From positions 1 to 20,521 of IMG/VR virus record IMGVR_UViG_3300009184_001658: 20,521 bases of DNA. One strand, given 5' to 3'. Below, piece after piece: positions 365-20,475 of the stretch. Position 1 is the first letter of the stretch, and the number at the start of each line of letters is the position of its first letter. A model generated the notes under the pieces. The model was not told where the DNA came from and did no database searches. It saw only the letters and a program-made list of their open reading frames with translations. The position numbers were made by a program, and so were the translations under genes. The DNA is from a virus.

Positions 365-2764
365 ATGCCATTACAAAAATTAGCATTTAGACCTGGTGTA
401 AACAGGGAAGGTACTAACTACTCCAATGAGGGTGGTTACTACGACTGTGACAACATTCGTTTTCGTTCTGGAAACCCAGAGAAAATTGGAGGATGGACAC
501 GGTATTCAAATGAGACTTTTTTAGGTACTTGCCGTTCTTTATGGAATTGGGTAGATTTATCCAGCAATAACTTTATTGGCGTTGGAACCAGCAAAAAGTA
601 TTACATTGAAAAGGGCGGTAATTATTATGACGTTACCCCTTTTCTTTTAAATAGTTCTAGCTCAACCACTACGACCCTAACAGCCAATCCTTTTGTTGCT
701 GTAGCTGGATCTGCCATCATTACTGTTACTGATACAGTCAGCGGACTTGTGCCAAGTAAAGGTGACTACGTTATTTTTACCAGCACGGCTACTGTAGGCG
801 GCTTGACCATTAGTGGTGAATACACAGTAACCGAAGTTTTAACTGGTATTTCTTACCAGATTACAGCTTCTACTACGGCATCTACCAGCGGTACTGGAGG
901 CGGTACAGTAACTGCCCAGTATGAGTATCCTATTGGCTTAGATAATGCAGCTTCTGCCACAGGTTGGAGCGCTGGTGCATGGTCTCCTACCGTTCCTGTT
1001 ACTTTGGCAGCCAATCCTATTGCATCTGCTTTTAGCACCTTAAACGGCACAATTACTTCTGGTTCTACCAGCATTGTATTAACTTCAGGTACTACATTCC
1101 CTAACTCTGGGGTAATTAAGATTGATAACGAGCTAATTGCCTACACCACCAAGTCTGTTAATACCTTATCAGGGTTAACCCGTGGATACAACAGCACTAC
1201 TGCAGCAGCTCATACAACTGGGGCAAATGTAGGTTGCGGTACTTATACTGTTTCTTACACAGCCCACGGGCTTTCTGCTGGCAACTATGTGTCTTTGGCT
1301 GTTAGTGCAGCGGTAGACGGCATTATTGCCGATGACTTTGTATCTACCTTTACAATTGCCAACGTAACCACTAACGCATTTACTATCAATTTAGATGGTG
1401 GAATAGGCGATATTATCTCTACCTCTGCTGCATCTGGAGGCGGTACGGTAGTAGCTTATCCTCAATTTGGTACTCGTGGCTGGGGAGCAGCTGCTTCTAC
1501 TGGGGTAGCTAACCAGTTACGCCTTTGGTCAGCTGACAATTATGGTCAAAACCTTGTTTTAGCGCCCCGTGGAGGCGGTATATTCTATTGGGAAGCGGCT
1601 TCTGGCGTAGCAGTAAGAGCTAAATATTTATCTACCTTATCTACTGCTGCTGGATATGCTGGGACTTATGTTCCTACTCAAACCAATCAAATAGTTTCTT
1701 CTGCTATTCAGCGTTTTGTAATTGCATTTGGAGCTAACGGATACACATCTGGCACTCCTAATACTTCTTTTAACCCTATGCTGGTTCGTTGGTCAGACCA
1801 GGCTAATCCATATGAATGGGTTCCCGCAGTTACTAACCAATCAGGTGAGTTTGCACTAACAAATGGCTCTTACATTATGTGCGCTAGAGCAACCCGTCAA
1901 GAGATCTTGGTTTGGACTGATTCAGCCATTTACTCTATGCAATACCTTGGCGCTCCTTATGTCTGGGGATTCCAGGTTTTGATGGATAACATTTCAATCA
2001 TCTCTCCTAACGCAGCTATTACAGTTAACAATGTTACTTACTGGATGGGTCGGGATAAGTTCTATATGTATTCAGGTAACGTCCAAACCTTGAACTGCAC
2101 CATCCGTCAATACATCTTTGAAGATCTAAACCAAGACCAAGGTTATCAAGTTTTTGCTGGATTAAACGAGGGGTATAACGAAGTTTGGTGGTTCTATGTA
2201 AGCCAGTCTAGCGGTGGTACAACTGTGGATAAATACGTTGTTTACAATTACTTGGATAACGTTTGGTACTATGGATCTATGGCAAGAACAGCTTGGCTAG
2301 AGACTGGATTACAACCTTTTCCAATTGCTACAGACTATAACAATCGCATCCTTAACCATGAAGATGGAGTTGACGATGTATCAGGGTTAACCCCACTACC
2401 TATTGATGCTTATGTGCAGTCTTCTGATTTTGACATTGGTGATGGACACAACTTCGGTTTTGTGTGGCGTATATTGCCTGACGTTAACTTTAACGGCTCT
2501 GATACTAACCAGCCATTTGTAACTATGACGGTTAAGCCACGGGTTAACTCAGGAACTCCTTATGGAACGGCTAATAACCCACAAGTAACCAGCCAAGATA
2601 ACTTTGCCTCTAGGCACGTTTACAACATTCAAGAGTTTACTGGTCAGGTCTATACCCGTTTACGAGGTAGGCAACTAGCCTTTAGAATTGAATCTAACAG
2701 CCTGGGAGTAGCATGGCAACTGGGTAATCCTCGTATTGATATTCGTCCAGACGGAAGAAGATGA
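365..2764 (+). CDS. Tail nozzle / head-tail stabilising virion structural protein
   Basis: This 799-residue protein starts MPLQKLAFRPGVNRE, followed by a GGYYDCDNIRFR stretch and PEKIGGW. That N-terminal pattern is typical of podovirus proteins related to P22 gp10 (tail stabilisation) and T7 gp12 (tail tube B/nozzle), which close the bottom of the tail below the portal. The body is rich in Gly, Ser, Thr and aromatics, with no transmembrane segment or enzyme motif, consistent with beta-rich architecture. Residues about 108-187 and 289-366 look like two copies of one beta domain, each ending GGGTV. Between them (about 223-288) is a small domain with FPNSGVIKIDNE and a later LTRG. A weak Shine-Dalgarno (AGGG, 352-355) precedes the start. 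The stop overlaps the next gene by ATGA, implying translational coupling. The structural role is fairly secure; nozzle versus adaptor is inference. Confidence 0.75.
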   Translation: MPLQKLAFRPGVNREGTNYSNEGGYYDCDNIRFRSGNPEKIGGWTRYSNETFLGTCRSLWNWVDLSSNNFIGVGTSKKYYIEKGGNYYDVTPFLLNSSSSTTTTLTANPFVAVAGSAIITVTDTVSGLVPSKGDYVIFTSTATVGGLTISGEYTVTEVLTGISYQITASTTASTSGTGGGTVTAQYEYPIGLDNAASATGWSAGAWSPTVPVTLAANPIASAFSTLNGTITSGSTSIVLTSGTTFPNSGVIKIDNELIAYTTKSVNTLSGLTRGYNSTTAAAHTTGANVGCGTYTVSYTAHGLSAGNYVSLAVSAAVDGIIADDFVSTFTIANVTTNAFTINLDGGIGDIISTSAASGGGTVVAYPQFGTRGWGAAASTGVANQLRLWSADNYGQNLVLAPRGGGIFYWEAASGVAVRAKYLSTLSTAAGYAGTYVPTQTNQIVSSAIQRFVIAFGANGYTSGTPNTSFNPMLVRWSDQANPYEWVPAVTNQSGEFALTNGSYIMCARATRQEILVWTDSAIYSMQYLGAPYVWGFQVLMDNISIISPNAAITVNNVTYWMGRDKFYMYSGNVQTLNCTIRQYIFEDLNQDQGYQVFAGLNEGYNEVWWFYVSQSSGGTTVDKYVVYNYLDNVWYYGSMARTAWLETGLQPFPIATDYNNRILNHEDGVDDVSGLTPLPIDAYVQSSDFDIGDGHNFGFVWRILPDVNFNGSDTNQPFVTMTVKPRVNSGTPYGTANNPQVTSQDNFASRHVYNIQEFTGQVYTRLRGRQLAFRIESNSLGVAWQLGNPRIDIRPDGRR

Positions 2765-5405: not shown

Positions 5406-5848
5406 TTATTTATGAGGATGTGGACGGATTTAAGTTTGTAGACGAGTTTGAAAAACTCTTTCCAGAACATTATGAAGAGCTATGTGTAACAAAAGATTTC
5501 CCTTATGAGCCAGATTACGATGCTTATAAAAAGATGGCAGAAGCAGGATTGTTGCGGTGCATTACTTGTAGGTCAGATGAAAGATTGATTGGTTACATTA
5601 TTTTTACCATTCATCCTCACTTACATTACAAGTCTTGTATGACGGCATTTGAAGATTTGTACTTTGTGACTAAAGAGTTTCGCAAAGGTAGAGTAGGGAT
5701 TATGTTGTTTAAGTATGCTGAAAAGGTACTTAAAGAACGAGGAGTACAAAGAATTGTGATGCACACTAAAGTGCATTTAGATAATTCAAAGCTGTTTGAG
5801 TATTTAGGATACAAAATGACGGATAAAATATTTACAAAAATGTTGTAA
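5402..5848 (+). CDS. GNAT-family N-acetyltransferase
   Basis: The 148 residues fit a single GNAT domain, which transfers an acetyl group from acetyl-CoA to an amine. The fold pattern is visible: LIGYIIFTIHPHLHY (62-76, strands with a beta bulge), FEDLYFVTKEFRKGRVGIML (83-102, the acetyl-CoA pyrophosphate loop and following helix), a helix with AEKVLKERGVQRI, then the strand VMHTKVHLDNSKLFEYLGY (119-137), the usual GNAT C-terminal N..a..fYeklGf-like segment. The loop reads RKGRVG rather than canonical R/QxxGxG/A, so the fourth position is Arg. I associate this variant with phage GNATs, but cofactor binding is not proven. The ATGA overlap with the upstream virion gene and the 8-nt gap to the next place it inside the structural operon. 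The substrate is unknown: a virion protein, a host protein and an antibiotic-like small molecule are all possible. Confidence 0.85.
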   Translation: MIIYEDVDGFKFVDEFEKLFPEHYEELCVTKDFPYEPDYDAYKKMAEAGLLRCITCRSDERLIGYIIFTIHPHLHYKSCMTAFEDLYFVTKEFRKGRVGIMLFKYAEKVLKERGVQRIVMHTKVHLDNSKLFEYLGYKMTDKIFTKML

Positions 5849-5856: not shown

Positions 5857-8055
5857 ATGAGCTACTCAAAACGCCAACTATATGCTTTGGGTGAACCCTT
5901 AGGGGATTCTGTTACCGTCAAAAAAGTTGGCGGTGGTCGGATCTATGGCGGTGGCGGTGGGGGTGGTGGTTCACCTGCCCCAGCAAGCCCTACTCAAACT
6001 AACGTAACTAATACCAATATTCCTGAATATGCACAGCCATATGTAGAGAATATGCTTAATGCTGCACAGGCTCAGATCTATAAGCCTGACATGACTGGTT
6101 TTAATCCGTATACACCTTACAGCAATAAACCAACTGACTATGTAGCTGGCTTTAGCCCATTACAACAACAAGCTCAAAGTAATGTTGCTAATATGCAGAC
6201 CTCTCCTGGATTGGGTTTGTATCAAGGCTTATCAGCGTTATCAGGCGGTGCTTACGCAAATCAAGCTACTAGCCCTTCAGCTATGCAAGCGTACATGAAT
6301 CCGTATTTAAACGCTTCTTTACAGCCACAATTAGCTGAAATCCAACGCCAATACGATATTACTGGCACTCAGCAAATGGGTAACGCTACTCGTGCTAATG
6401 CGTTTGGTGGATCTCGTGAAGCGTTAATGGCTGCTGAAAATCAACGTAATGCTGGTCTTGCAAAGAACCAAGCTATTGGTCAAGGCTATAACAATGCGTT
6501 CCAAGCTGCTCAACAAGCTCAACAATTTGGCGCTAATTTGGGTCTTCAAGGTTATGGTCAAGCAGCTAATATGGCTGGTCAACAATTGGCTCAAGAACAA
6601 AGTATTGCCAATTTGCAAAACCAAATGGGCGCTCAACAGCAAGGTCAACAACAAAACATTATCAATCAAGCTGTTCAAAACTACGCTACTGCACAACAAT
6701 ATCCATACCTCCAGTTAGGTATGCTTAACTCCATGTTGCGTGGTCTGCCTATGCAACAGTCTTCTACCCAGATGTATCAAGCTGCTCCTAGTACTGTTTC
6801 CCAATTAGGCGGTTTAGGTATTGCTGGTTTAGGTGGCGCTGCTATGTATAACGCAGCAAAAGGTGGTGCTAAAGGCGGTATGACTGAAGATATTGCTGGA
6901 TACGCACCAGGCGGTGCTATTCCAATGACAAGCTACAGCGATCCACAGTTAGCTCAAGTACAAAGAAGCCCATACTCACAGCCACTAGATAAGCTATATG
7001 CTGGTGGTATATCAATGGATCGTGGCGATATTCGTAACAATCCACAGGCAATTAGAGCTATTTCTAGTGCTAACCAACCTCAACCTGCTATGCAACAACC
7101 TATGCCACCAATGGCTGGTTTAGAAAATGCACCCACAGGTGATGTAATTCCACAGCAGTTTGCTAATGGTGGAATTATGGCTTACGCTGGCGAAGATGAC
7201 AGCGATGTAAAAGTTCCTAGAACTAAATCAGGTAAATTAGACTTAGAGGCACTTCTTGCAGACAGAGTAGAAAGAGAAATGTCTAGAAAAGATACTGCGA
7301 TGGCAGCTTATAAGCCATTAGCTGAAGCTCAAGCAGCAGATATAAAACAACAAAGAGCTATGTTAATGCCTGAGTTTGCTACTCGTTTAGGTCTTGGAAT
7401 GATGACTGCACCTTCTGGAGAAGCAGGAACTGAGCTTAATAAATTAGCTTCTAGCGTTGGTAGATCTGGTTTAGGCGCTGTTTCTGGAATGTCATCTAAC
7501 CTTAAAGATATTCACGCTGGTCAGAAAGCTTTAGGTCAAGGCACTATTGAGGCAGCCAAAGCTGACCAAGCCCGTCAAGATGCGCTTACAGGCACTCTTG
7601 CTAATATTTATGGCACAACAGAAAACAAGAAAATTGGTCTTGCTCAAGTAAATGCCACTAAGGCATTGCAACTAAAATTACAAGAACAAGAACTATTTAG
7701 AAAAGCTTCTAGTGATTTTGCATCGGCTGTAGAAAAACGTTTAAATCATCTCTTAACAGACTCAACTAAACAATTTGAATTCCAAGGCGAGGCAGGTCGT
7801 ATAAAAGCTCAACAACAGGCTTATGCTGATGTTTGGGAAAAACAACCTCCTGGAATGAAGCTTATTTTACAAGCTGGATCAGACTATAATCCAGGAGCAG
7901 CAACAGCTCCAGTAGCAGCAGCTCCAGCAGTACCAGCAGTACCAGCAGCACCAGCAGGAAATAGAGCAATGCCAGCAGCACCAGCAGGTCAATTGCAGTG
8001 GGATCCTTCTGCAAATGGCGGAAGAGGTGCATTAGTAAACATTAGACCAAGTTAA
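5857..8055 (+). CDS. Gln/Ala/Gly-rich virion protein, probable ejection protein
   Basis: This 732-residue protein starts MSYSKRQLYALGEPLGDSV, followed by a run of eight glycines (residues 31-38), an N-terminal layout that I associate with phage virion proteins. Then come IPEYAQPYVENMLNAAQAQ and FSPLQQQAQSNV, followed by a helical Gln/Ala-rich segment (about 140-285). This resembles the long helical internal proteins podoviruses eject ahead of their DNA. Residues near 349, 381 and 435 carry YAPGG, YAGG and FANGG motifs matching those of the gene at 3096, suggesting shared assembly or membrane contacts. The C-terminal third is more charged and helical (about 447-660), ending in a Pro/Ala tract with a PAAPAG duplication. 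I see no enzymatic motif or signal peptide. It is flanked by GNAT and the giant polyvalent gene. The virion role is likely; an ejection role is inferred. Confidence 0.7.
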   Translation: MSYSKRQLYALGEPLGDSVTVKKVGGGRIYGGGGGGGGSPAPASPTQTNVTNTNIPEYAQPYVENMLNAAQAQIYKPDMTGFNPYTPYSNKPTDYVAGFSPLQQQAQSNVANMQTSPGLGLYQGLSALSGGAYANQATSPSAMQAYMNPYLNASLQPQLAEIQRQYDITGTQQMGNATRANAFGGSREALMAAENQRNAGLAKNQAIGQGYNNAFQAAQQAQQFGANLGLQGYGQAANMAGQQLAQEQSIANLQNQMGAQQQGQQQNIINQAVQNYATAQQYPYLQLGMLNSMLRGLPMQQSSTQMYQAAPSTVSQLGGLGIAGLGGAAMYNAAKGGAKGGMTEDIAGYAPGGAIPMTSYSDPQLAQVQRSPYSQPLDKLYAGGISMDRGDIRNNPQAIRAISSANQPQPAMQQPMPPMAGLENAPTGDVIPQQFANGGIMAYAGEDDSDVKVPRTKSGKLDLEALLADRVEREMSRKDTAMAAYKPLAEAQAADIKQQRAMLMPEFATRLGLGMMTAPSGEAGTELNKLASSVGRSGLGAVSGMSSNLKDIHAGQKALGQGTIEAAKADQARQDALTGTLANIYGTTENKKIGLAQVNATKALQLKLQEQELFRKASSDFASAVEKRLNHLLTDSTKQFEFQGEAGRIKAQQQAYADVWEKQPPGMKLILQAGSDYNPGAATAPVAAAPAVPAVPAAPAGNRAMPAAPAGQLQWDPSANGGRGALVNIRPS
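7942..7988 (+). repeat. 17-bp direct repeat encoding PAAPAG twice
   Basis: The sequence CCAGCAGCACCAGCAGG occurs at 7942-7958 and again at 7972-7988, separated by 13 bp. It lies inside a longer run of CCAGCA-type units from about 7923 that encodes a Pro/Ala-rich tail (AVPAVPAAPAG, then MPAAPAG). The repeat is in frame with the 5857-8055 gene, so copy-number change would alter only the length of a flexible linker. Confidence 0.85.
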
Positions 8056-8061
8056 AAATTT

Positions 8062-11000
8062 ATGCCGTCAGTCAACATACCATATGTTGGCGTAGTTGAG
8101 TTTCCTGACACGATGTCTTCTGATGAGATATCTAATGTCATTAAAACTCAAATTATGCCTAATGCGCCACAAGCAAATGTTGCTCCTGTGGCTGGTTCTA
8201 CCAAAGTAGCTGACGTATTACAAAGATCAATATTTGGTCCAATTGATGCCATCATGCCAGGATCTAACCTGGCAAATGAACCAACCCCATCTATTGGTTC
8301 TTTGGCTAAAGGAATTAAATCATTATCTAATGTTCCTACCCAGTGGCAGTTATCTTCTCAATTAGAGTTAATTGAAGCTAACAAAAGAAAGTATGGGCAA
8401 AACTTTGAAAATGCCCCAGAAAAAGAAAAATCAGACATTCTTAATACAGTTAAGAAGGCTAGTGAGAATTTAAGTTATTTAGCGCAGTCTGGAGAAGATG
8501 TCAAAGCCATTGAACAAAAGTATGGCAAAGACCCATTATCCAAAAAGATTGATGCTTTAGAACAAAAGCCAGAGTTTAAAAAAGCTACTGAATGGCAACA
8601 GGCTGGAATGATTGGCAAAGAATATCTTAAGAACATTGATGAGTTACCTTCTTATATTGCCAACGTAGGTCTAAGTAGTCTTCCACAGTCTATTGCTATG
8701 GCTGTAGCTGCCAGATTTGGTATGGCAGCTGGTCCAACAGGCGGTTTAATTGTTGGCGGTGGCTCTTCTGCAATGATGGAATATGGTCAACAGTACGTTG
8801 AATTAAGAGAAAGAGGTTTTAACCACGAAGAAGCCAATAACAAGGCAATGGTTAAGTCATCAATCATTGGTATGTTTGATGCAGCTTCTTTAAGGTCAGC
8901 TGGCAAAATTGCTGAAAAGATATTTGACAATACAGCTACCAAAGTTTGGAAAGAGACAGTCAAAGATGTTGCCAAAGAAATACCAAAGCAAGCTTCTTTA
9001 GGCGCTGCTGGTGAGGGATTAGGATCTTATGCAAGCAACCAGCCTGTTAATCCTAGAGCTGTATTAGAAGAAGCTATTGGTGAAGTATTTGGCGCTCCAG
9101 CAGAAGCAGCTGCAACTTATAAGAGTAAGAAAGCAGAAGCTGAACAAGTACCCCCCTCCCCCCCTCCTGCCCCACCAGCCGTTGTTCCAGCTCCTAATGC
9201 CCCTTCTGCCCCTCCTTCTGGTTTGGTAGACGAAAGTGATCTAGAAACTTTTGTCCCACCTAATGCGCCACCATCAGCAACACCTGTTGCAGTAGTAGCA
9301 CCTGTTGCAACAAGCGATTTAGAAACAAAAATAAATGATTGGGCTGCCAAAGCAGAAGCAACTGGCGAACCAAACACTAAAGAGTTAAATAAGATAGCTA
9401 AAGAATATGGCATTACTCCAGCAAAAGAGCCACAGCAAACACTTGGTCTTTTACTGGATAAGATGAGTGAACAGACCACTGAGTCTGTTGCTCCCCCAGC
9501 TGAAACTATTCCTCCCATTGATATGGGTGAGAACACAGAATATCGTATTGTTAAAAATGACAATGGCTGGACGGCTGTATTGTTTGACAATGATGCCAAC
9601 CAAATGGTTTCTGCAACAACATTCCCAACAGACAAGTTTGGGGATCAAGAAGGCAAACAAAAAGCTATTGAGTTTGCTCAATCTGAAGCTGAAAAAGCTG
9701 CTCCATATAACCAAGAAGCACCAGAAGAAGCTCCTTCTGAAGAAAAGCCTTCTATATTTGACCAAGTTAAGAATGGCGAATTTGCGGGAGAAGTTACAGC
9801 TGAAGATGCCCAACAAGCTATTGATAAGCTTGTAGAAGAAGACCAAGGCGATAAAGTAACTTGGGCAGCACCTCCTCCACTAACACCAGAAGAAATAGCT
9901 CAAAATAATCGTGATAGACAAGCTGCTCAACGTGCAGAAGCACAAGGGGAAACTGTTCCTACTGTAGCGCCAGAAGCTACTGGAGAAGCCCTATCTCCAG
10001 AAGCACAAGCCGATAAAGACTTGATGGATGCTTTGGGTGAGCTATCTTGGATGGCTAGTAAAAATACCCGTATGAATATGATGCCTGAGGATGAACAACG
10101 CCTCATGCCTACCCTTATTAAGCTTATGGATGCTGCTTTCCGTAAGGGTTATCACACCTTTAAGAAAGCCGCCAAATTTGTTCGTGACCTTATTAAACAA
10201 GCTTTTGGTAAAGATGTATCAGACAAAATTAATCTAAACCACCTTCAAGGTGCTTATATTGCTATGTCTGGCAACTATCCAGATAAAGCTACACCAATTG
10301 CTGAAGTGGCTGGTGTTAAGGCAATAGAAGAAATTGAAGTTGAAGAAGCTAAACCTGCTGGCAAGTTAGATTTAACCACTCCAGATGGCAAATACAACAT
10401 TGCTTTGGTATTAGCTGACCATTTCTTAGAAGGTAATGCGTTCAGCACCATTGTTGAAGCTCGTAAATTTATCTCTGAGTTGACTGGTGAGAAGATTGAA
10501 GCTGCCACCATGCAAGCCAAACAAGCTGATGAGGCGGTAGAAGTTGGTATCGTATTGGCTGCGCAAGAGATTTCTCAGAATTCCAAGTCACCTACAGAGG
10601 CGTATGACAGATTAGTAGACTTGTACAACAGACAGCCTAACTTGGCGGTTCGTTCCTCTACCAGCGTTAGAGAACAGGCTTACTCTACCCCAGCTCCGTT
10701 AGCGTATGTTGCCAGCCAATTAGCTGGAATCAACCAAAATACCACTGTTTATGAGCCAACTGCTGGTAACGGGATGCTTTTGATTGCATCCAACCCTAAC
10801 ATTGTTATAGTTAACGAGCTGAACTCTAGCCGTGCTGAAATGCTTAAAAGGGTTTTCCCTAAAGCTGAAGTTACTGTTGGTAATGCTTTAAAGCAAGAAG
10901 CAACTTTAGTAGACGTTGTTATTGAGAATCCTCCGTTTGGCTCTACTGGTGAAAACTTTGATATTGATGGGTTTAAAACCAGAGAAATAGACCATGCAAT

Positions 11001-14000
11001 CGTAATGAAGTCTTTGCAGAACATGAAACCAAGTGGTAAGGCTGTCTTAATAATTGGCGGTGTTCGGGCTGAAGGCGAAGATGCTAGAAAAGAAGGTTAT
11101 CGTTCAGCTGCGAAACGAAACTTCTTTGTTAATTTATACGACAAATACAACGTAGTAGATCATTTTTCAGTGTCTGGTGATATGTATACCAAACAGGGAG
11201 CTAGTTACCCTGTAGATGTCATTGTGATTAATGGGGATGGCAAAGCAGAAAGAGCATTGCCAGCTGCGGAATTGCCACAACAAATCAATTCTTATGAAGA
11301 ACTCAAGGAGAAATTAAATGCCAGCATGGTATCCAGAGCAAATGTCAGCCCCAGTGGGACTAACATCGGTAAACGTACCCCAGGGGGAGCTAACCAGGAA
11401 AATGTGGCTGGAAGCCCTAGCGGACAGGCTAGTAGACCTAGTGGAGGAGAGCAACAATCCACAGGAGCTGGCAAACCAAATGTGCCAACAAATGGGGCTG
11501 GCATCAGTGGAAGACCCGAATCAACTGGGGCAGGTACTGGTGAAAAACAACCTAAACCTGCTAACAAACCTGACAATGCTCCAGAGGGAAGTACCGTTCC
11601 CAGCGCAGGTAAGCCAAAGCAACCCCCTAGCGGAAAAGGCGCTGAAGGAAACAAGCCTGGAGGAGTGGGTGGAACTAGCGTTGTCAGTGGAGAACGCATC
11701 CAGTCTCGACTAAATGATCGTAGAGGCAAGGAAGAAGTTACCGAAGGTCAAGTTCCTTATCAACCTAAGTCAAAAGCTAACTCTGTTGGTACGCTTGTAC
11801 CAGGTGGTATGGCTCAATCCATTAGGGAATCTCTGGACAAAGTTGAAGCGCAAGTTGGTGACATTGATGAATATGTATCAAAAGAGCTTGGGTTTACTAA
11901 GGATGAACTGTTTAATAACTTTTCAGCCGAGCAAATTGACTCTTTAGCACTGTCTATTTTTAACGCAGATGCTGGTCAAGGTTTTATTATTGGCGATCAA
12001 ACTGGTGTTGGTAAAGGTCGTGTAGTGGCTGCAATGATTAAATACGCATTGAAAAATGATCGTATTCCTATTTTTGTAACGCAATTCCCTAATCTGTTCT
12101 CCGATATGATCCGTGACTTGGATGATATTGGCATGACTAAAGAGCTTGCATTGGATACTACTGATCCTAAGATCTTTATGACCAACGTAGATCAGAAAGT
12201 TCCTTACAAGTTAGTTAGAACTGTTAATGGAGAAAAGGTAGAGAAAGAATTAACTTTAGAGCCATTCTCTACAGATAGACCTAAACAAAATGCCAAGATG
12301 AAAGAGTTGGCAGCCCAAGGTAATTTGGGTAATTACAAGGTTATCTTTACAACTTACAAGCAATTACAGAACGTCAAAGGTAAAGCTACTGAACGTCAAC
12401 GCTTTGTTCAAGCATTAGCCGATCAGAACTACCTTATCCTTGACGAAAGCCACAATGCTGGCGTAGCTGGCAAAGAAGGAACTGAAGGTCAACAAGAAGG
12501 TGGAGATCTTGGAGAAGGAGTAGTCAGCGAGATTATTGCTCCAAACATTGGTTCGTTCATCCGTATGTTGGTTAATGATGCCTATGGCTCATTCTTCTCA
12601 TCTGCTACCTATGCAAAACGTGCAGACATCATGGACTTGTATGCCAGCACAGACATGAAGCTGGCGGTTAAAAAGATCTCTGACCTAGCTGAAGCCATCA
12701 AAAATGGTGGTATTCCAATGCAACAGATTGTTGCCAATATGCTTGCCAAGGTTGGTCAATACATTCGCAGAGAACGCACCTTTGCTGGGGTTTCATATAA
12801 CACTGAAGAAACCAAAGTAAACAAAGAAACAGCAGAGAACATGGCTACCTCAATGCGAGATATCCTGGCTTTTTCTCGTGCTGTAGGCATTGCTGGTAAG
12901 AAATTAGCGGGAAGTTTAGATACTTCTGGTGCGGTATTAGCCAAGAAAAAAGATAGAGTCAATGTTGAAACAGTCAATTTTGGCTCAACAATGCACAACT
13001 TGATTGACCAGATGTTGCTTTCTTTGAAAGCCCAAAGCTCTGTAGATCATGCAATATCAAGGTTAAAAGCTGGTGAAAAGGTAGTTCTTACTGTGTCTAA
13101 CACAATGGGTTCTTTCCTTGAAAGTTATTCAGATGAAATGGAACTCAAAAAGGGTGATCCAATTAATCTGAATTTTTCAAACCTTTACCTAAAGTATTTG
13201 AAGAAACAAAGACAAGTCACCATTAAGTATCCAGCTAAGAATGGCAATCCATCTTACAAAGAAGTGCGTGATTTAACTGATGAGGAACTTGGGCCTGAAT
13301 TAACTGTTGCCTATAACGCTATTGTTAAATTCATTCAAAACGCAGGGTTTGAAGATGCTCCTGTATCCCCAATTGACTATATGCACTACAAGTTACGTCA
13401 AGCTGGGTTTAAGACTGGTGAGATTACAGGTAGAAATATTGGTATCAATTACTCTGGTGCAACAGAGGCTTCAATACCTACGCTGCAAGCTATTAAAAAT
13501 ACTACCAAAACCAAGTACGAAGCTATTACTAAGTTTAATGGTGGTGAATTTGACGTATTGATTTTGAATCAAGCTGGCTCTACTGGCTTGTCTTTACACG
13601 CCTCTGAGAACTTTAAAGATCAACGCAAACGCCATATGATTATTGTTCAGGCTGAAAAGAACATTGATACCCATATGCAGATGCTAGGTCGTGTTCACAG
13701 AACTGGTCAAATCATTCCTCCTGCTTACTCACAGATGATGGCTGACATCCCTGCTGAGATGCGCCCAGCTGCCATTTTGCTTAAAAAGATGGCATCACTG
13801 AACGCAAATACTACAGCTTCCCGTAAGTCTGCCGTGACTGCGGAAGGTGCTGTGGACTTTATGAATGACTATGGCGGTCAGGTAGCCAATGAGTTGCTGG
13901 CTGATAACCCAGACTTGCATGAATCTTTGGGTGGCGATAATGCGTTCCCAGTTAAAGAAAACTCTAGCGAAGCTACCGAAGAAGATGTCCGTAAGCTGAC

Positions 14001-17000
14001 TGGCTATATTCCTATCCTGCCTATTAAAGAGCAAGAAGAGTTCTACAAAGACCTAACAGAACGATATAAAGAGTTGCTAGATCGTGAGATCAGCATGGGG
14101 ACTAACAAGCTTGAAGCAAAAGCACTGGACATCAATGCAAAAACATTAAGCTCTACCCCAATTACCGAGAACAAAGGTGACTCATTATTTGCTCAACCAG
14201 CATTTATGGAATTAATTGAGGCTGATCGTACTGTTAAGCCAATGAGTTCTGAAGAAGTTATTGAGGCTGCCAAGAAAAATTTGGATGGCAAATCTCCAGG
14301 TCAGCTGTCTTTGGAGCAAAGAGATGCTCTGACAGCAAAGATGAGAGCTTATACTGCCGAAAGAATAGAACTAGAAGTAGAAAAGAAATCAGATGAGGTT
14401 CGTTTATCTACTGTCAGGGGTCAGTTAAACCTACAGGAAACCCATATTGATTCTATTTTAAGAACTTACACAGTTGGCAAGTTTGTCACCCTTACTAATG
14501 AGTTAGGTGTGGCTTTAACTGGTGCAATCATTGATGTTAAAAATGTAGGCAAAACCAAGAACCCAGCTGCTGGTACTGACTGGAAGATGACTTTTGCCTT
14601 GGCTAATGGTGATGCTAGGTCAATTACTTTGCCATTCTCACAGATTGGTAAGCAATACAAGTTAGAAACTGTATCAAGCACCAATACCTTTAACTACGAA
14701 ACTCAACAGTTTGAGGACATTCCTGTTATCAAACAGTTTGATATGGGTTCACAGATCAGACGTGAAAAGCGTTGGATGGTAACTGGAAACATCCTTGCTG
14801 GCTTTGCAGCGGTTAAAAACAAGGGTCAGATTACCAACTTCAAAGACAACGAAGGCTATGAACGTCAAGGTATCTTGATGCCTCGTGCCTACGACTTTGC
14901 CAAAGAACAGAAAGATGCGCCTGTAGAGATTGCAACGGCTGACAATGCCATGCGTTTCCTTGATGAGATTGGTGGAACAATCACTTCAGAAGATGGCATA
15001 TTGCGGATTACCAAGTCTAGCTATGGAAACCAATACCAATTTAACGTCCCAAGCTCTAAGAAAGAAGGCGGTACATACTTCCTAGACAGAAGGCTGACTG
15101 ACATTCTGGGTGACTTCTACAAGTCTGGCAGCACTATGTATGCCAGGGGAACTGCAGAAGAAGCTAGAAAAGCTATTGATGTCATCCTCAATAAGCGCCA
15201 AGAGACTTTAGTTACCAAGGACAATAAAGAAAGAGCCAAAAAGCTTTTTGCTCCAGAGCCTTTGGAAAACATTGTTCCTCGCAAGAAGACTACAAAACAA
15301 ATCTTTGACAGCAGGGTCAGAAATGAAATTATTGCTGAACAGCGTAAGTTAAATGCACAGGAAAGAAAGCTAAAACGTCAAATAATCAATGGTGAAGTAA
15401 CCCTTGATGCCCAGCGTGAGATGACTTTCATTGATGAAAGAACCAAAGAGCTTGAAGAAAACTTAGAAGCCATCAAAGATAAAACCCCACCAGATGCGTT
15501 ATCAGTGCATCAACGGGCTGAAAGAGCTTTACGGGATGGCGAGATTAGCCAAGACGTATTCAATGTTATCCATTGGATGTGGAATAACTCTCCTGCTCTG
15601 TTGACTGGTTTAAAACTGCAAATTAGAAAACCAACTTCTAAAGAAGAAGGGGCAACGGGTTCATTTAACCCATTAGATCGTTTAGTTCGTTTGTATAAGG
15701 GAACAGAAGGGGTAACTGACCCAGAGACTGCCCGTCACGAATTAACCCACACTCTTGAACAGATGATGACCCCACAGGTCAGGAAGCTAATTGTTCAGCA
15801 GTGGGCAAAAGAAACTAAAAAAGCTATTAAGAACAATACTGATCCTGCTTCTCAGGATTACTTCCAAGCCATCAATGATTACATGGCTAACCCAACTAAG
15901 GCAAATTACGAAAAAGTAAGGGAGCTAGTAAAAGATTTAAACCTCTATCAATACGCTAACCCATCAGATTACTGGGCGGTTAATGCCGAGAAGCTCATGG
16001 CTATGAAGATGGGGACTGCTTGGAATCGTTTTGTATTGGCGGTTAAGAAGCTATTTGAAGGCATGAAATCTTTATTTGGCTTTGACAATCAATACATCCT
16101 ATACAAAACCTTTGATGATTTGATGAAGGGCAAGACACCAAGGATGGATTACGAATCCTTGAAGCACTTCTTTGATATGACAGGTCCGTCAAATGAGTTG
16201 TTGTTCAATATTGCCGATGATGTGAAATTGCTCGATAAGATTGGAGTTGAGCAACCTCCAGTGCATACCAACAATACTGTCCAAGACTACCTCATGGGCG
16301 GTTATCAAACGGCTAAGAACATCAAAACCAGAATATTGGAATCCCCAAGAAACCTGATTCCTGGTGCAGTGACTGGCATAGACAAGCTGGCATTAGGATT
16401 CCGAGTTAAAGCAACTGACTTTACAGCAGGTCTGGCAGCTGAAGATGCTGTTAGATATGACAGAGAGCTGTTAGATGGCGAAGGTCGTGCTGTTGCTTCT
16501 ATCGCAGCAGACCAGCAGTTAAAGGCTAACCACATTGCTACTCAAGTAGTTACTTTAGGCAAGTTGGCATTTGACCCAGTTAATCAGATGTTTAAAGCTA
16601 CAGAAGACAAGAACTCTACTGGTAAGATCATTCAGCTTGCCCATGAATTTGGCAAAGAAGTAGGTGTTAAACACGCTTTTAGGGTAATCAATGGTTACTT
16701 TGAAGCCAAGCGTTCACGCAGCATTGTGAATGAATACCTCAAGCGCCAAGGTGAACTTGAAACATTAAAGACAGAAGCTTTAGACCCAGACTTGCCCCCA
16801 GATCGTCAGTTGGCGTTGACAGTTGCAATTCAAAACGCCCAAGAAAACTTTGAAGGCATTGATATTGCTCGTCAGAAAGTTAACCTTAAAGATACTGAGA
16901 TTGACGATCTAATAGCTTTAGAAAAGAAATATCCTGTTCTTAGAGAGATGATGGATATTTGGAATGATGTAAGCCGAAACATGGTCAACATGATGGAGTT

Positions 17001-19113
17001 TGGCAAGATTATTAGCAAACAAACTGCTGATATGTATCGCAAGATTGATGACTATGTGCCTTGGCAGCGAATCCAACCAGAAGATATTAGCCAAGATCCT
17101 AGTAAGCCTACATTCTTCTATGGTGCTAAAGGTGTCCGTAACGTCTCCAGGGAGCATAAATTTAAGCCAGGTGAAGTTGAGTTGGCATTAAACAATGTCC
17201 TGGACAACATGGTTAATCATGTCGTTTTGACCTCTAGAAACGTCATTAAGAACTACGCTGCTAATCGTATTGCATCTGAATATGGTGAGCGCAATGAAAA
17301 AGGTAAGCTTAAAGTCTATCCAAAAGAAGACTTTGCTCGTGGCATCGTCAAAATTCTGGTAAATGGTCGCAAGATCAATATCCGCATCGTAGATCCATTG
17401 ATTGCTCAAGCCGTGATTGGCATGGAAAGCATGAACATTCCTTTAATGGGATTGATGGGCTTTGGCGCACAGACCCTGCGTAGAACCATTACTTACTCTG
17501 GAGTATTCCAGTTAAGACAGTTGTTTATGGATATTCCAAGCACCATCCTTGTTACTGGTGTTAGAAACCCATTAAGCTTTTATGGCTCGGTATTTGGGTC
17601 TTTCGTTAAGTCTTTAAACAACAATGACCCAGTAGTGAAGATACTTAAGGCGCATGGCATTGGCAATATCTATTCCAGCTCTAGAACTTCAATGCAGTAT
17701 TACGACCAAACCATTGGTTTGTTAAATGGATCAAAGCTGCAACAGACTATTTCTTTGTTAGAGAAGATTGGCGATGCCTCCGACATGGCTCCTCGCAGAG
17801 CTACTTATCTGCGTGTAATGAAAGAAACTAAAGGGGATCAGCGTAAAGCCCTGTTAGCTTCTGCCAATGTGATTAACTGGGATAAAAAGGGTTCGTCCAA
17901 AGTTGCCCAGACTTTAGCCCACTCTATCTCCTTTATGAACGCATTTGCCCAACAGATTGACGTTCTGTCCCAAGCTTTACTAGAACCTGTTGCCTATGGG
18001 GTAGAAAAGACTACAGGTGCTAAAGTAAAAAGCGTTAGCGGTGGTCTAAAAGGTCAAGCTCGTACAGAAGCTATTGAGCGTTTAGCTACGGCAATTGCCT
18101 GTATGCAGATTGGTATGCTGATGTATCTGTTTGCCATTGGTGATGATGAGGAATACCAAAGGTTAGATGACCAGACCAAGATGCGTAACTTCTTTGTCCC
18201 AAGAAAGTTAATGAAACAGATTGGCTATGACCATTCATTGCTTATTCCTTTGACAACGACTGCTGGATACCTAGTTAAAGCTATCCCTGAGATGACTTAC
18301 AACAGGATCATTACCCAAGGCACTAAGAATGAAGTTGATGCAACCCGCTTCTGGAAAGCTCTTAGACATGGCGGTATTGATGCCCTGTTAGGACCTCTGG
18401 CTTCTGGTCCAGTGCCAACAGTGTTCAAGCCATTTGTTGAGATTGGTATCAACCATAACTTCTTTACTGGCGGTAAGGTAGTTCCTGAAAGCATGAAGCA
18501 CCTAGAAGCTTATAGACAATACAATGCCAATGTCTCCCAGTTAGGAAAATGGTTAAGCGCTGCCACCCAAGTTCCATTTACAGGCAAAAAAGATGACAAG
18601 GGTGAGCTTGTAGAAGGTAGCAAAAAACGAATTCTTAGCCCAATTGAGGCTGACCATTTAGCTCGTGGCTTGTTTGGCTCTGTCGCTGGCTTAACTATGT
18701 GGATGAGTGATCTTCTGTCTAGCAATAAGCCAACTAAGGAAGAACGCAACAATCCTCTCTATGGCTCGTTTGTAGCTCCAGAAGTTCCTCGTGGCAGGGA
18801 AGATCTTTTCTATGACCTTAAAGCACGTTCTGACGTTGCTATGACTACCTTTAAGACAGAGATGAAGAACATGAACCCAACACAAGGTAAGAAGTGGTTT
18901 GAGGCTAACAAAGGTCTTATCCAGGCTAATGGATTTACTCAGTCAGCTGGCGCATCTCTTAATGCAATTACTGGTCAGATCCGTAGGATTGAGGACTTGC
19001 CAGAAAAAGAGATGTCTGCTCAAGAAAAGCGCAAAGAAATCAACTTCTTAAAAGGTAAAAAAGAAGAGATTTTGCAAGACACTATTAGATTCCGTCTCAA
19101 AGCTGGATTGTAA
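8062..19113 (+). CDS. Giant polyvalent protein: N6-adenine methyltransferase, Strawberry-notch helicase, zincin, LPD38-like C-terminus
   Basis: This 3683-residue protein is probably virion-borne. In order: an N-terminal NIPYVGVVEFPDTMSSDEI element; a hydrophobic stretch (about 208-240); a Pro/Ala linker (about 362-420); a helical region (654-741). The N6-adenine methyltransferase has SAM motif EPTAGNGML (898-906) and catalytic NPPFG (956-960), preceded by QAYSTPAPLA. A Gly/Pro/Asn linker (about 1087-1213) follows. The superfamily 2 helicase resembles Strawberry-notch: Walker A GDQTGVGK (1311-1318), DESH (1461-1464), SSAT (1513-1516), GSTGLSLHA (1839-1847), QMLGRVHRTGQ (1873-1883). Then a coiled coil (about 2420-2474), a zincin HELTH (2559-2563) with E2643 a possible third zinc ligand, and a C-terminus (about 3125-3580) resembling LPD38, with a hydrophobic segment near 3343-3362. 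P1 DarB pairs a methyltransferase and helicase to shield injected DNA; a similar anti-restriction role is inferred. The start lacks a clear Shine-Dalgarno. Confidence 0.85.
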   Translation: MPSVNIPYVGVVEFPDTMSSDEISNVIKTQIMPNAPQANVAPVAGSTKVADVLQRSIFGPIDAIMPGSNLANEPTPSIGSLAKGIKSLSNVPTQWQLSSQLELIEANKRKYGQNFENAPEKEKSDILNTVKKASENLSYLAQSGEDVKAIEQKYGKDPLSKKIDALEQKPEFKKATEWQQAGMIGKEYLKNIDELPSYIANVGLSSLPQSIAMAVAARFGMAAGPTGGLIVGGGSSAMMEYGQQYVELRERGFNHEEANNKAMVKSSIIGMFDAASLRSAGKIAEKIFDNTATKVWKETVKDVAKEIPKQASLGAAGEGLGSYASNQPVNPRAVLEEAIGEVFGAPAEAAATYKSKKAEAEQVPPSPPPAPPAVVPAPNAPSAPPSGLVDESDLETFVPPNAPPSATPVAVVAPVATSDLETKINDWAAKAEATGEPNTKELNKIAKEYGITPAKEPQQTLGLLLDKMSEQTTESVAPPAETIPPIDMGENTEYRIVKNDNGWTAVLFDNDANQMVSATTFPTDKFGDQEGKQKAIEFAQSEAEKAAPYNQEAPEEAPSEEKPSIFDQVKNGEFAGEVTAEDAQQAIDKLVEEDQGDKVTWAAPPPLTPEEIAQNNRDRQAAQRAEAQGETVPTVAPEATGEALSPEAQADKDLMDALGELSWMASKNTRMNMMPEDEQRLMPTLIKLMDAAFRKGYHTFKKAAKFVRDLIKQAFGKDVSDKINLNHLQGAYIAMSGNYPDKATPIAEVAGVKAIEEIEVEEAKPAGKLDLTTPDGKYNIALVLADHFLEGNAFSTIVEARKFISELTGEKIEAATMQAKQADEAVEVGIVLAAQEISQNSKSPTEAYDRLVDLYNRQPNLAVRSSTSVREQAYSTPAPLAYVASQLAGINQNTTVYEPTAGNGMLLIASNPNIVIVNELNSSRAEMLKRVFPKAEVTVGNALKQEATLVDVVIENPPFGSTGENFDIDGFKTREIDHAIVMKSLQNMKPSGKAVLIIGGVRAEGEDARKEGYRSAAKRNFFVNLYDKYNVVDHFSVSGDMYTKQGASYPVDVIVINGDGKAERALPAAELPQQINSYEELKEKLNASMVSRANVSPSGTNIGKRTPGGANQENVAGSPSGQASRPSGGEQQSTGAGKPNVPTNGAGISGRPESTGAGTGEKQPKPANKPDNAPEGSTVPSAGKPKQPPSGKGAEGNKPGGVGGTSVVSGERIQSRLNDRRGKEEVTEGQVPYQPKSKANSVGTLVPGGMAQSIRESLDKVEAQVGDIDEYVSKELGFTKDELFNNFSAEQIDSLALSIFNADAGQGFIIGDQTGVGKGRVVAAMIKYALKNDRIPIFVTQFPNLFSDMIRDLDDIGMTKELALDTTDPKIFMTNVDQKVPYKLVRTVNGEKVEKELTLEPFSTDRPKQNAKMKELAAQGNLGNYKVIFTTYKQLQNVKGKATERQRFVQALADQNYLILDESHNAGVAGKEGTEGQQEGGDLGEGVVSEIIAPNIGSFIRMLVNDAYGSFFSSATYAKRADIMDLYASTDMKLAVKKISDLAEAIKNGGIPMQQIVANMLAKVGQYIRRERTFAGVSYNTEETKVNKETAENMATSMRDILAFSRAVGIAGKKLAGSLDTSGAVLAKKKDRVNVETVNFGSTMHNLIDQMLLSLKAQSSVDHAISRLKAGEKVVLTVSNTMGSFLESYSDEMELKKGDPINLNFSNLYLKYLKKQRQVTIKYPAKNGNPSYKEVRDLTDEELGPELTVAYNAIVKFIQNAGFEDAPVSPIDYMHYKLRQAGFKTGEITGRNIGINYSGATEASIPTLQAIKNTTKTKYEAITKFNGGEFDVLILNQAGSTGLSLHASENFKDQRKRHMIIVQAEKNIDTHMQMLGRVHRTGQIIPPAYSQMMADIPAEMRPAAILLKKMASLNANTTASRKSAVTAEGAVDFMNDYGGQVANELLADNPDLHESLGGDNAFPVKENSSEATEEDVRKLTGYIPILPIKEQEEFYKDLTERYKELLDREISMGTNKLEAKALDINAKTLSSTPITENKGDSLFAQPAFMELIEADRTVKPMSSEEVIEAAKKNLDGKSPGQLSLEQRDALTAKMRAYTAERIELEVEKKSDEVRLSTVRGQLNLQETHIDSILRTYTVGKFVTLTNELGVALTGAIIDVKNVGKTKNPAAGTDWKMTFALANGDARSITLPFSQIGKQYKLETVSSTNTFNYETQQFEDIPVIKQFDMGSQIRREKRWMVTGNILAGFAAVKNKGQITNFKDNEGYERQGILMPRAYDFAKEQKDAPVEIATADNAMRFLDEIGGTITSEDGILRITKSSYGNQYQFNVPSSKKEGGTYFLDRRLTDILGDFYKSGSTMYARGTAEEARKAIDVILNKRQETLVTKDNKERAKKLFAPEPLENIVPRKKTTKQIFDSRVRNEIIAEQRKLNAQERKLKRQIINGEVTLDAQREMTFIDERTKELEENLEAIKDKTPPDALSVHQRAERALRDGEISQDVFNVIHWMWNNSPALLTGLKLQIRKPTSKEEGATGSFNPLDRLVRLYKGTEGVTDPETARHELTHTLEQMMTPQVRKLIVQQWAKETKKAIKNNTDPASQDYFQAINDYMANPTKANYEKVRELVKDLNLYQYANPSDYWAVNAEKLMAMKMGTAWNRFVLAVKKLFEGMKSLFGFDNQYILYKTFDDLMKGKTPRMDYESLKHFFDMTGPSNELLFNIADDVKLLDKIGVEQPPVHTNNTVQDYLMGGYQTAKNIKTRILESPRNLIPGAVTGIDKLALGFRVKATDFTAGLAAEDAVRYDRELLDGEGRAVASIAADQQLKANHIATQVVTLGKLAFDPVNQMFKATEDKNSTGKIIQLAHEFGKEVGVKHAFRVINGYFEAKRSRSIVNEYLKRQGELETLKTEALDPDLPPDRQLALTVAIQNAQENFEGIDIARQKVNLKDTEIDDLIALEKKYPVLREMMDIWNDVSRNMVNMMEFGKIISKQTADMYRKIDDYVPWQRIQPEDISQDPSKPTFFYGAKGVRNVSREHKFKPGEVELALNNVLDNMVNHVVLTSRNVIKNYAANRIASEYGERNEKGKLKVYPKEDFARGIVKILVNGRKINIRIVDPLIAQAVIGMESMNIPLMGLMGFGAQTLRRTITYSGVFQLRQLFMDIPSTILVTGVRNPLSFYGSVFGSFVKSLNNNDPVVKILKAHGIGNIYSSSRTSMQYYDQTIGLLNGSKLQQTISLLEKIGDASDMAPRRATYLRVMKETKGDQRKALLASANVINWDKKGSSKVAQTLAHSISFMNAFAQQIDVLSQALLEPVAYGVEKTTGAKVKSVSGGLKGQARTEAIERLATAIACMQIGMLMYLFAIGDDEEYQRLDDQTKMRNFFVPRKLMKQIGYDHSLLIPLTTTAGYLVKAIPEMTYNRIITQGTKNEVDATRFWKALRHGGIDALLGPLASGPVPTVFKPFVEIGINHNFFTGGKVVPESMKHLEAYRQYNANVSQLGKWLSAATQVPFTGKKDDKGELVEGSKKRILSPIEADHLARGLFGSVAGLTMWMSDLLSSNKPTKEERNNPLYGSFVAPEVPRGREDLFYDLKARSDVAMTTFKTEMKNMNPTQGKKWFEANKGLIQANGFTQSAGASLNAITGQIRRIEDLPEKEMSAQEKRKEINFLKGKKEEILQDTIRFRLKAGL

Positions 19114-19144: not shown

Positions 19145-19180
19145 GAGGACGTGAAGGAGCATAGCTCCGTCTTCATTTTA
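19145..19180 (+). terminator. Probable + strand terminator after the giant gene
   Basis: GAGGAC (19145-19150) pairs with GTCTTC (19169-19174), with one G-U pair, and GGAGC (19156-19160) pairs with GCTCC (19164-19168) around an ATA loop. A 5-nt bulge (GTGAA) lies on one side. ATTTTA follows at 19175-19180, giving a modest U tail on the + strand. It lies about 30 nt after the giant gene stop and would end the late transcript. It is weaker than the opposite-strand hairpin because of the bulge and short U run. Confidence 0.5.
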
Positions 19181-19547
19181 TATCTATTTTTACCATTCCT
19201 TTTACTTCGTCAGAAAAAATAAATGTTGGTAAAAAACACCTATCGTTTACCCTTAGAGCATCTGCCAGACCATCCAATCCAGACTTGATTGCTGCAACCA
19301 TGTTATCGGCATCCCTATGGCGTTTATCAGGGGGATAGAAGGTTATATCCAACTTTATCTTTGGATCGCTTGTAGCCGCTAATTTAGCCTCCAAAGCCAA
19401 TGCCCAGCAGGTATGGCGGTAGGTCTTCTTGTACTTGGCTTTCTTAGCCCAATGCAAGGCTGCGTTAGGGGATAACTCCTTTGGAGGCCAGGGCAAAATA
19501 ACTGTTTTCATAGTAGATGAATTAATATGGGTACGACCTATTGACAT
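19173..19547 (-). CDS. rusA: RusA-like Holliday-junction resolvase
   Basis: This protein of up to 124 residues matches the RusA family, dimeric endonucleases that cut four-way DNA junctions. LPWPPKELSPNAALHW (18-33) is the typical N-terminus. FYPPDKRHRDADN (70-82) holds the paired catalytic aspartates (D79, D81), and VND (100-102) supplies a likely third acid. E. coli RusA has a catalytic Lys four residues after the second Asp; here that position appears to be Ala (A85), and a Lys sits at 88 within IKSGLDGLADAL, a spacing I recall in other phage members. Two starts are possible: ATG at 19545-19547, with a weak AGAG upstream, or an internal ATG at 19509-19511 giving MKTVILPWPP, which suits the family's usual short N-terminus. 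It converges on the giant gene and diverges from the nuclease gene. A role in resolving recombination or replication branches before packaging is inferred. Confidence 0.85.
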   Translation of the reverse strand: MSIGRTHINSSTMKTVILPWPPKELSPNAALHWAKKAKYKKTYRHTCWALALEAKLAATSDPKIKLDITFYPPDKRHRDADNMVAAIKSGLDGLADALRVNDRCFLPTFIFSDEVKGMVKIDIK

Positions 19548-19599: not shown

Positions 19600-20475
19600 A
19601 TGAAGCTAACTAATAAATTTAACATTCCACAGACATTCGTTAATGTCTTAGAAAGACCAACTTACTCCAAAGGTAAGGCTAATCTGTCTGTTACTCAGTT
19701 GATTAACAGTCCCAAGATTGTTGCCCTGACCAAGAAGTACGATGAAGATATTGAGCAGGATGTAGCCGACATGGTTTGGTCATTGTTTGGCTCTGCCGTC
19801 CATAACATCCTAGAACATGGCAAGGATGAGAACCACATAGTCGAGCAACGCATCCATGCCGAGTTAGAAGGGTGGCATATTAGCGGTGCGGTAGACCTAC
19901 AGGTCAACCATGAGGGCGGTGTATCCATCAAAGACTACAAAACCACCAGTGTTTGGGCGGTAATGAATGAGAAGATTGAATGGGAATACCAACTCAACAT
20001 CTACGCTTGGCTAGTGGAAAAGGTTCGGCAGATGCCTGTTACCGATCTAGGCATTGTGGCTATCCTGCGTGACTGGAAAGCTAGAGAAGTAGAAACCAAG
20101 GAAGGCTACCCTGAAGCCCCAATCAAGGAAGTGCCTATTACCTTGTGGACTATGGAAGAAAGGGAAGAGTTCATTAAAGCTCGTATCTCTGTTCATTCAG
20201 CTTGTGAATTTGCTTTAGAAACTGATGCAGACTTGCCTGAATGTACTTCTGAAGAGATGTGGGAAAAGCCACCAGTTTGGGCTATTAAGAAGATTGGCGG
20301 TAAAAGGGCGCACTCACTATACCAAACGGCAGAAGAGGCTAATCAAGCCATCTTTCCACTAGGTAGTGCCTATGAAATAGAAGTACGCAAAGGCGAAAGA
20401 ACTCGTTGTGCAAGCTATTGCCCTGTTAGTCAATGGTGCAATCAATATCAAAATTACTTGAAGGAACAAGCATGA
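19600..20475 (+). CDS. RecB/Cas4-like PD-(D/E)XK nuclease
   Basis: The 291 residues show the ordered motifs of the RecB/Cas4-like PD-(D/E)XK superfamily: SVTQLINSP (30-38); GSAVH with H68; SGAVDL with D99; IKDYKT with D112 and K114, the metal-binding and catalytic core; and YQLNIYAWLVE (130-140), the Q..lY helix. Near the C-terminus is C270-x3-C274-x5-C280 (RCASYCPVSQWC), like the cysteine cluster of Cas4/AddB-type Fe-S nucleases. No cysteine precedes the nuclease core, and other cysteines lie at 202 and 215, so a full four-Cys cluster is uncertain. It begins a + strand operon behind a clear promoter and ribosome site and overlaps the next gene by ATGA. Next to a putative annealing protein, it is probably the exonuclease of a two-component phage recombination system. 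The polarity of digestion cannot be told. Confidence 0.8.
   Translation: MKLTNKFNIPQTFVNVLERPTYSKGKANLSVTQLINSPKIVALTKKYDEDIEQDVADMVWSLFGSAVHNILEHGKDENHIVEQRIHAELEGWHISGAVDLQVNHEGGVSIKDYKTTSVWAVMNEKIEWEYQLNIYAWLVEKVRQMPVTDLGIVAILRDWKAREVETKEGYPEAPIKEVPITLWTMEEREEFIKARISVHSACEFALETDADLPECTSEEMWEKPPVWAIKKIGGKRAHSLYQTAEEANQAIFPLGSAYEIEVRKGERTRCASYCPVSQWCNQYQNYLKEQA

Follow-up and report, generated by a model that had tools for sequence, protein, structure and literature searches.

Polyvalent proteins that carry a DNA methylase-helicase dyad have been described previously, with DarB as the archetype and with helicases of the Strawberry-notch type in some members (PMC5512222). P1 DarB is a 251-kDa head protein that protects against type I restriction (PMC9024508; PMC5512222), and its N-terminal 30 residues suffice to package a reporter (PMC9024508). 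In Burkholderia phage JC1 (gp69) and in Bcep22 (gp75), the virion module likewise ends with a giant DarB-like protein, and the 4515-residue JC1 gp69 was detected by mass spectrometry in purified virions of this podovirus with 51 unique peptides (PMC9144972); we liken our protein to these two by their description. Here, we present an analysis of a gene for a very large protein of a freshwater phage; the window, i.e., the whole stretch of DNA analyzed, corresponds to an entire IMG/VR virus record (20,521 bases). As Iyer et al. (2017) described for polyvalent proteins, enzymatic domains that are unrelated to each other are fused in one chain, and the gene adjoins phage late/packaging genes. The class of phage polyvalent proteins with a methylase-helicase dyad is already described; the window protein is a further example and adds a freshwater virus group to it.

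The polyvalent protein gene extends from the ATG at 8062 to the stop codon at 19113 on the plus strand and encodes 3683 residues. The original prediction of one uninterrupted 11-kb frame was borne out. Two longer viral contigs (L002 and L003, the latter of 44.5 kb) contain an ORF of equal length that, in the helicase region compared, is 100% identical to the window protein. Dozens of further viral contigs have homologous ORFs (3137-5630 residues where complete), so neither the length nor the frame is an artifact. Because the ORF has the same length in these longer contigs, including the one of 44.5 kb, which is probably close to a full genome, the gene accounts for roughly one quarter of the genome.

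Its start lies six bases past the end of a gene for a 732-residue protein (5857..8055, plus strand) that matches PHROG 4287 ("DNA ejection protein"), and a virion structural protein (PHROG 3287; 365..2764, plus strand) is encoded in the same late cluster. Of the 61 relatives for which sufficient sequence is available, 40 also have an ejection-like gene upstream of the giant gene. The first gene downstream encodes a RusA-like resolvase (19173-19547, minus strand) and the second a PD-(D/E)XK exonuclease (19600-20475, plus strand), both based on Pfam/PHROG matches. Because recombination genes begin here, the polyvalent gene closes the late cluster, and its predicted position directly after an ejection-type virion gene is correct. 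In the same cluster, a gene for a GNAT acetyltransferase (5402-5848) sits between two virion-type genes, and several close relatives retain it (74-84% identity); the proteins encoded at 3096-5405 and 5857-8055 both contain repeated glycine-rich YAxGG/AEGG-like stretches. In a sister contig of the window (L082:15734-19592), a radical SAM protein directly precedes a cysteine-rich 288-residue protein, and an aspartyl/asparaginyl hydroxylase-like gene follows shortly after, pointing to a possible modification of a virion protein.

The adenine-specific DNA methyltransferase module (10384..11286, plus strand; residues 775-1075) contains the motifs STP (875-877), EPTAGNG (898-904), and NPPF (956-959), and the DNA methyltransferase family PHROG 3820 matches residues 872-967 (3e-11). 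STP and NPPF, which correspond to the TP motif and NPP(Y/F) of gamma-class adenine methylases, are invariant. C-terminal to the methylase in the same chain, as in the DarB dyad, Pfam identifies an SF2 helicase/translocase of the Strawberry-notch type (11749..14031, plus strand; residues 1230-1990) with a P-loop (TGVGKG at 1314), DESH at 1461, SAT at 1514, and motif VI (QMLGRVHRTGQ, 1873-1883). Both Strawberry-notch models, AAA_34 (residues 1304-1591, 3e-20) and Helicase_C_4 (residues 1787-1946, 8e-23), score above their curated cut-offs and were found in all 11 family members scanned. In alignments with 11-12 relatives (28-43% identity to the window protein), both the methylase and the helicase have catalytic motifs that vary little or not at all. 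Thus, Pfam, PHROG 3820, and these motifs uphold the original prediction of a polyvalent protein with a DarB-like dyad. A conserved domain of ∼400 residues follows the helicase (14029..15261, plus strand; residues 1990-2400) and lies within the invariant core. N-terminal to the methylase, where the DarB dyad has LPD36 with a GxGU motif, the family consensus is GxGF (GNAF in the window protein); no LPD36 model matched. A DNA-level search of isolated phages with the helicase region gave no match. In one relative (L058), the giant ORF has two NPPF motifs, at residues 1189 and 1660, the second of which is located past the P-loop.

The zincin-like metallopeptidase domain (15496..16161, plus strand; residues 2479-2700) contains the HExxH motif HELTH at residue 2559 (15736-15750, plus strand), which is invariant across 33 aligned relatives of the zincin clade. 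AlphaFold modeled this domain from 33 sequences (pLDDT 85, pTM 0.81) with three strands and two helices, the first of which contains HExxH. Consistently, alignment and model together place HExxH on the helix after a three-stranded sheet, as in zincins, and PMC5512222 describes the same layout of three strands and two helices for zincin domains in polyvalent proteins. In a fold comparison with the PDB, zincin metallopeptidases rank first and include the entry by which PMC5512222 identified the group, while selecase and IrrE rank further down; the best E-value of 0.14 is not significant on its own. The likely position of the third zinc ligand is occupied by Glu in aligned relatives and by Asp in the window protein, making D2636 (15967-15969, plus strand) the candidate ligand based on the alignment. 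The region with HExxH is confidently predicted to have a zincin-like fold, in line with the metallopeptidase proposed originally.

The remainder of the protein is a C-terminal helical module (16159..19110, plus strand; residues 2700-3683), which includes LPD38 (PF18857; 18145-18759, plus strand; residues 3362-3566, 5e-23). With 82.6 bits against a gathering score of 27, the LPD38-like region of the original prediction is a real Pfam match. These 984 residues form mainly helices (mean pLDDT 77 in a model of 1194 residues), hydrophobic ones among them. The module matches many predicted viral polyvalent proteins, and a comparison of the 1194-residue fold with the PDB returned nothing at E ≤ 0.001 and, hence, no solved relative. 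An LPD38 module also occurs in HTVC010P and in Bacillus phage Page, there unaccompanied by methylase or helicase. Because the module is always C-terminal in the family members that have it and occurs without the dyad in these two phages, we suggest that it may be a part for virion docking or ejection. We rejected the reading of gp20 from HTVC010P as an LPD38 protein that stands alone because its N-terminal part runs on in gp19 in another frame, so that the true protein is probably longer; for HTVC010P, we retain only the absence of methylase and helicase. The apparent spread of its LPD38-type module over two frames (gp19-gp20, L194:5541-7224) suggests a sequencing frameshift or a real split.

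To describe the anatomy of the family, we compared its members block by block with the window protein and by profile, with counts that are not filtered for redundancy. Residues 775-2400, i.e., methylase, helicase, and the following domain, are kept in essentially all relatives. Among the 66 members with an intact C-terminus, 44 have the zincin domain (residues 2480-2700), while the rest have another type of HExxH or none; 48 have the LPD38 module and 18 lack it; and 38 have both behind the same core. Where LPD38 is present in these members, it ends at most 30 residues from the C-terminus in every case (48/48). L058 has LPD38 and no zincin. That some relatives lack zincin or LPD38 argues that neither is essential to the core. 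The domains with their intact motifs, the module boundaries, and the gene order are clear at the sequence level, and, read in the same way, the pattern is one in which the methylase-motor core is fixed, the peptidase and the C-terminal module are usually present, and the cargo is exchangeable. In the case of L034 (5085-17328), an apparent natural split into four genes was discarded; its pieces can be aligned with relatives whose frame is continuous, and they meet at overlapping changes of frame that lack good start codons, so the giant ORF was probably broken by frameshifts in the contig.

The N-terminal third (8062..10383, plus strand; residues 1-774) consists of a leader, a hydrophobic glycine-rich stretch, and proline-rich linkers, and it is replaced in most relatives; a search of isolated phages with the N-terminal 763 residues gave no match. 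Based on Pfam, other members have cargo domains, including ART, RadC, InPase, ddrB-ParB, transglycosylase, and phosphoribosyltransferase. In the 5630-residue ORF of L081, a transglycosylase and a 2H domain resembling 2'-5' RNA ligase and the anti-CBASS protein Acb1 precede the methylase-helicase core; the 2H domain is at residues about 2241-2336, with an Acb1 match below its curated cut-off. A short motif is duplicated in tandem within the first 80 residues in 22 of 51 non-redundant relatives (shuffle P ≤ 0.01), and in a repeat run with internal controls at the same threshold, 19 of 51 N-termini scored compared with 16 of 204 internal windows. The motif varies between lineages, as in NPFAKY, LVPVDFDPF, and FWE(D/N)DP, each present twice, and carriers include the giant ORFs of L032, L036, L018, L069, L072, L010, L058, and others. 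By the same test, the window protein itself has no N-terminal tandem duplication, and a search of the other genes of the same loci for the N-terminal motifs of the giant protein found none. Prompted by the ability of the P1 DarB N-terminus to direct packaging, our guess is that the duplicated motif could be a capsid-targeting signal.

Among isolated phages, Vibrio phage VvAW1 gp1 (NC_020488; "DarB-like antirestriction") is nearly equal in length to the window protein, at 3640 residues. The order of its methylase, SF2 helicase, HExxH, and LPD38 is that of the window protein, and its gene has a similar location, in that a "DNA ejection" gene precedes it two genes upstream. VvAW1 gp1 differs in that its helicase is of the SNF2/ResIII type rather than Strawberry-notch and in that its HExxH region is not matched by the zincin profile of the window family. 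The comparison of domain order with known polyvalent proteins, together with the 38 of 66 members that share the set, does not support the suggestion that this combination of domains in one chain is new. Bacteroides phage BS-TP4 gp3 (PQ571277, 5391 residues) shares the entire length of the methylase-helicase core (31-33% identity) as well as the C-terminal LPD38-like module; however, it is longer, lacks HExxH, and has another N-terminal part. The 5007-residue gp27 of Erwinia phage Pavtok, annotated as "DarB-like antirestriction; methylase, helicase, lytic transglycosylase," belongs to the same zincin clade (E 2e-25) but differs in the annotated transglycosylase, the absence of an LPD38 match, and a helicase not matched by the profile. 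P1 DarB also has a methylase fused to an SF2 helicase; however, it has 2255 residues, its helicase is of the SNF2 type, and it lacks HExxH and LPD38. The methylase profile of the family matched P1 DarB weakly (domain E 0.004), while the helicase profile gave no match to it, consistent with the Strawberry-notch assignment in the window protein and the SNF2 assignment in DarB by Pfam. Because the helicase is of another subfamily and the methylase match is weak, we conclude that the window protein is not an orthologue of P1 DarB.

By analogy with these systems, we consider it probable that the window protein is a methylase-helicase polyvalent protein that is packaged in the virion and ejected together with the DNA and that protects the incoming genome, with the zincin freeing modules and LPD38 serving in docking. 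For the window phage, we infer packaging, ejection, self-cleavage, antirestriction, and the role of LPD38. In this model, the protein would be produced late and packaged in the head alongside ejection proteins, and it would exit together with the DNA. Its helicase module would then track along the incoming duplex, and host restriction enzymes would fail either because the methylase modifies adenines or because the methylase-helicase pair shields the DNA. The zincin would cleave its own chain or that of a partner, thereby freeing modules. The C-terminal LPD38 module would contribute to virion docking or ejection, and the variable N-terminal third would comprise a packaging leader and exchangeable extra cargo. 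We favor this order of packaging, ejection, methylation, and module release because it is analogous to DarB and the giant DarB-like proteins.

Alternatively, the protein could belong chiefly to the ejection machine, with LPD38 and the hydrophobic N-terminus forming a trans-envelope conduit, the helicase pulling in or remodeling DNA, and the methylase playing a secondary part. The LPD38 modules without methylase or helicase in small podoviruses, the hydrophobic helices in the C-terminal region, and the ejection-type neighbor gene fit with this idea; however, the most conserved part of the family is the methylase-helicase core and not LPD38, which 18 of the 66 members lack, and a comparison of the C-terminal 1194-residue fold with the PDB (E ≤ 0.001) revealed no solved ejection protein of similar structure, making this explanation unlikely. 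Even less probable, in our view, is a late-acting methylase or replication factor that functions inside the producing cell and is not injected. The recombination genes immediately downstream would agree with such a function, but the gene comes last in the late cluster, after virion-type genes, and giant proteins related to this one are part of the virion (PMC9144972, PMC9024508).

Beyond the favored model of a packaged and ejected anti-restriction protein, our findings enlarge the class of very large, probably injected anti-defense proteins. They newly add an anatomy for the family, i.e., an invariant core, a usual but dispensable zincin, an LPD38 module that, where present, always lies at the very C-terminus, and an N-terminal third that varies; the relatives provide clean module boundaries, so that the roles of the LPD38 module and of the N-terminal leader can be tested directly in cultured phages. 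We tentatively speculate, while regarding it as somewhat doubtful, that LPD38 is a general podovirus chassis for virion docking or ejection and that the N-terminal leaders, often with a duplicated motif, are capsid-targeting signals. If so, giant polyvalent proteins would be modular delivery systems, in which a fixed methylase-motor core is combined with exchangeable counter-defense cargo, such as ART, RadC, InPase, and anti-CBASS-like 2H domains.
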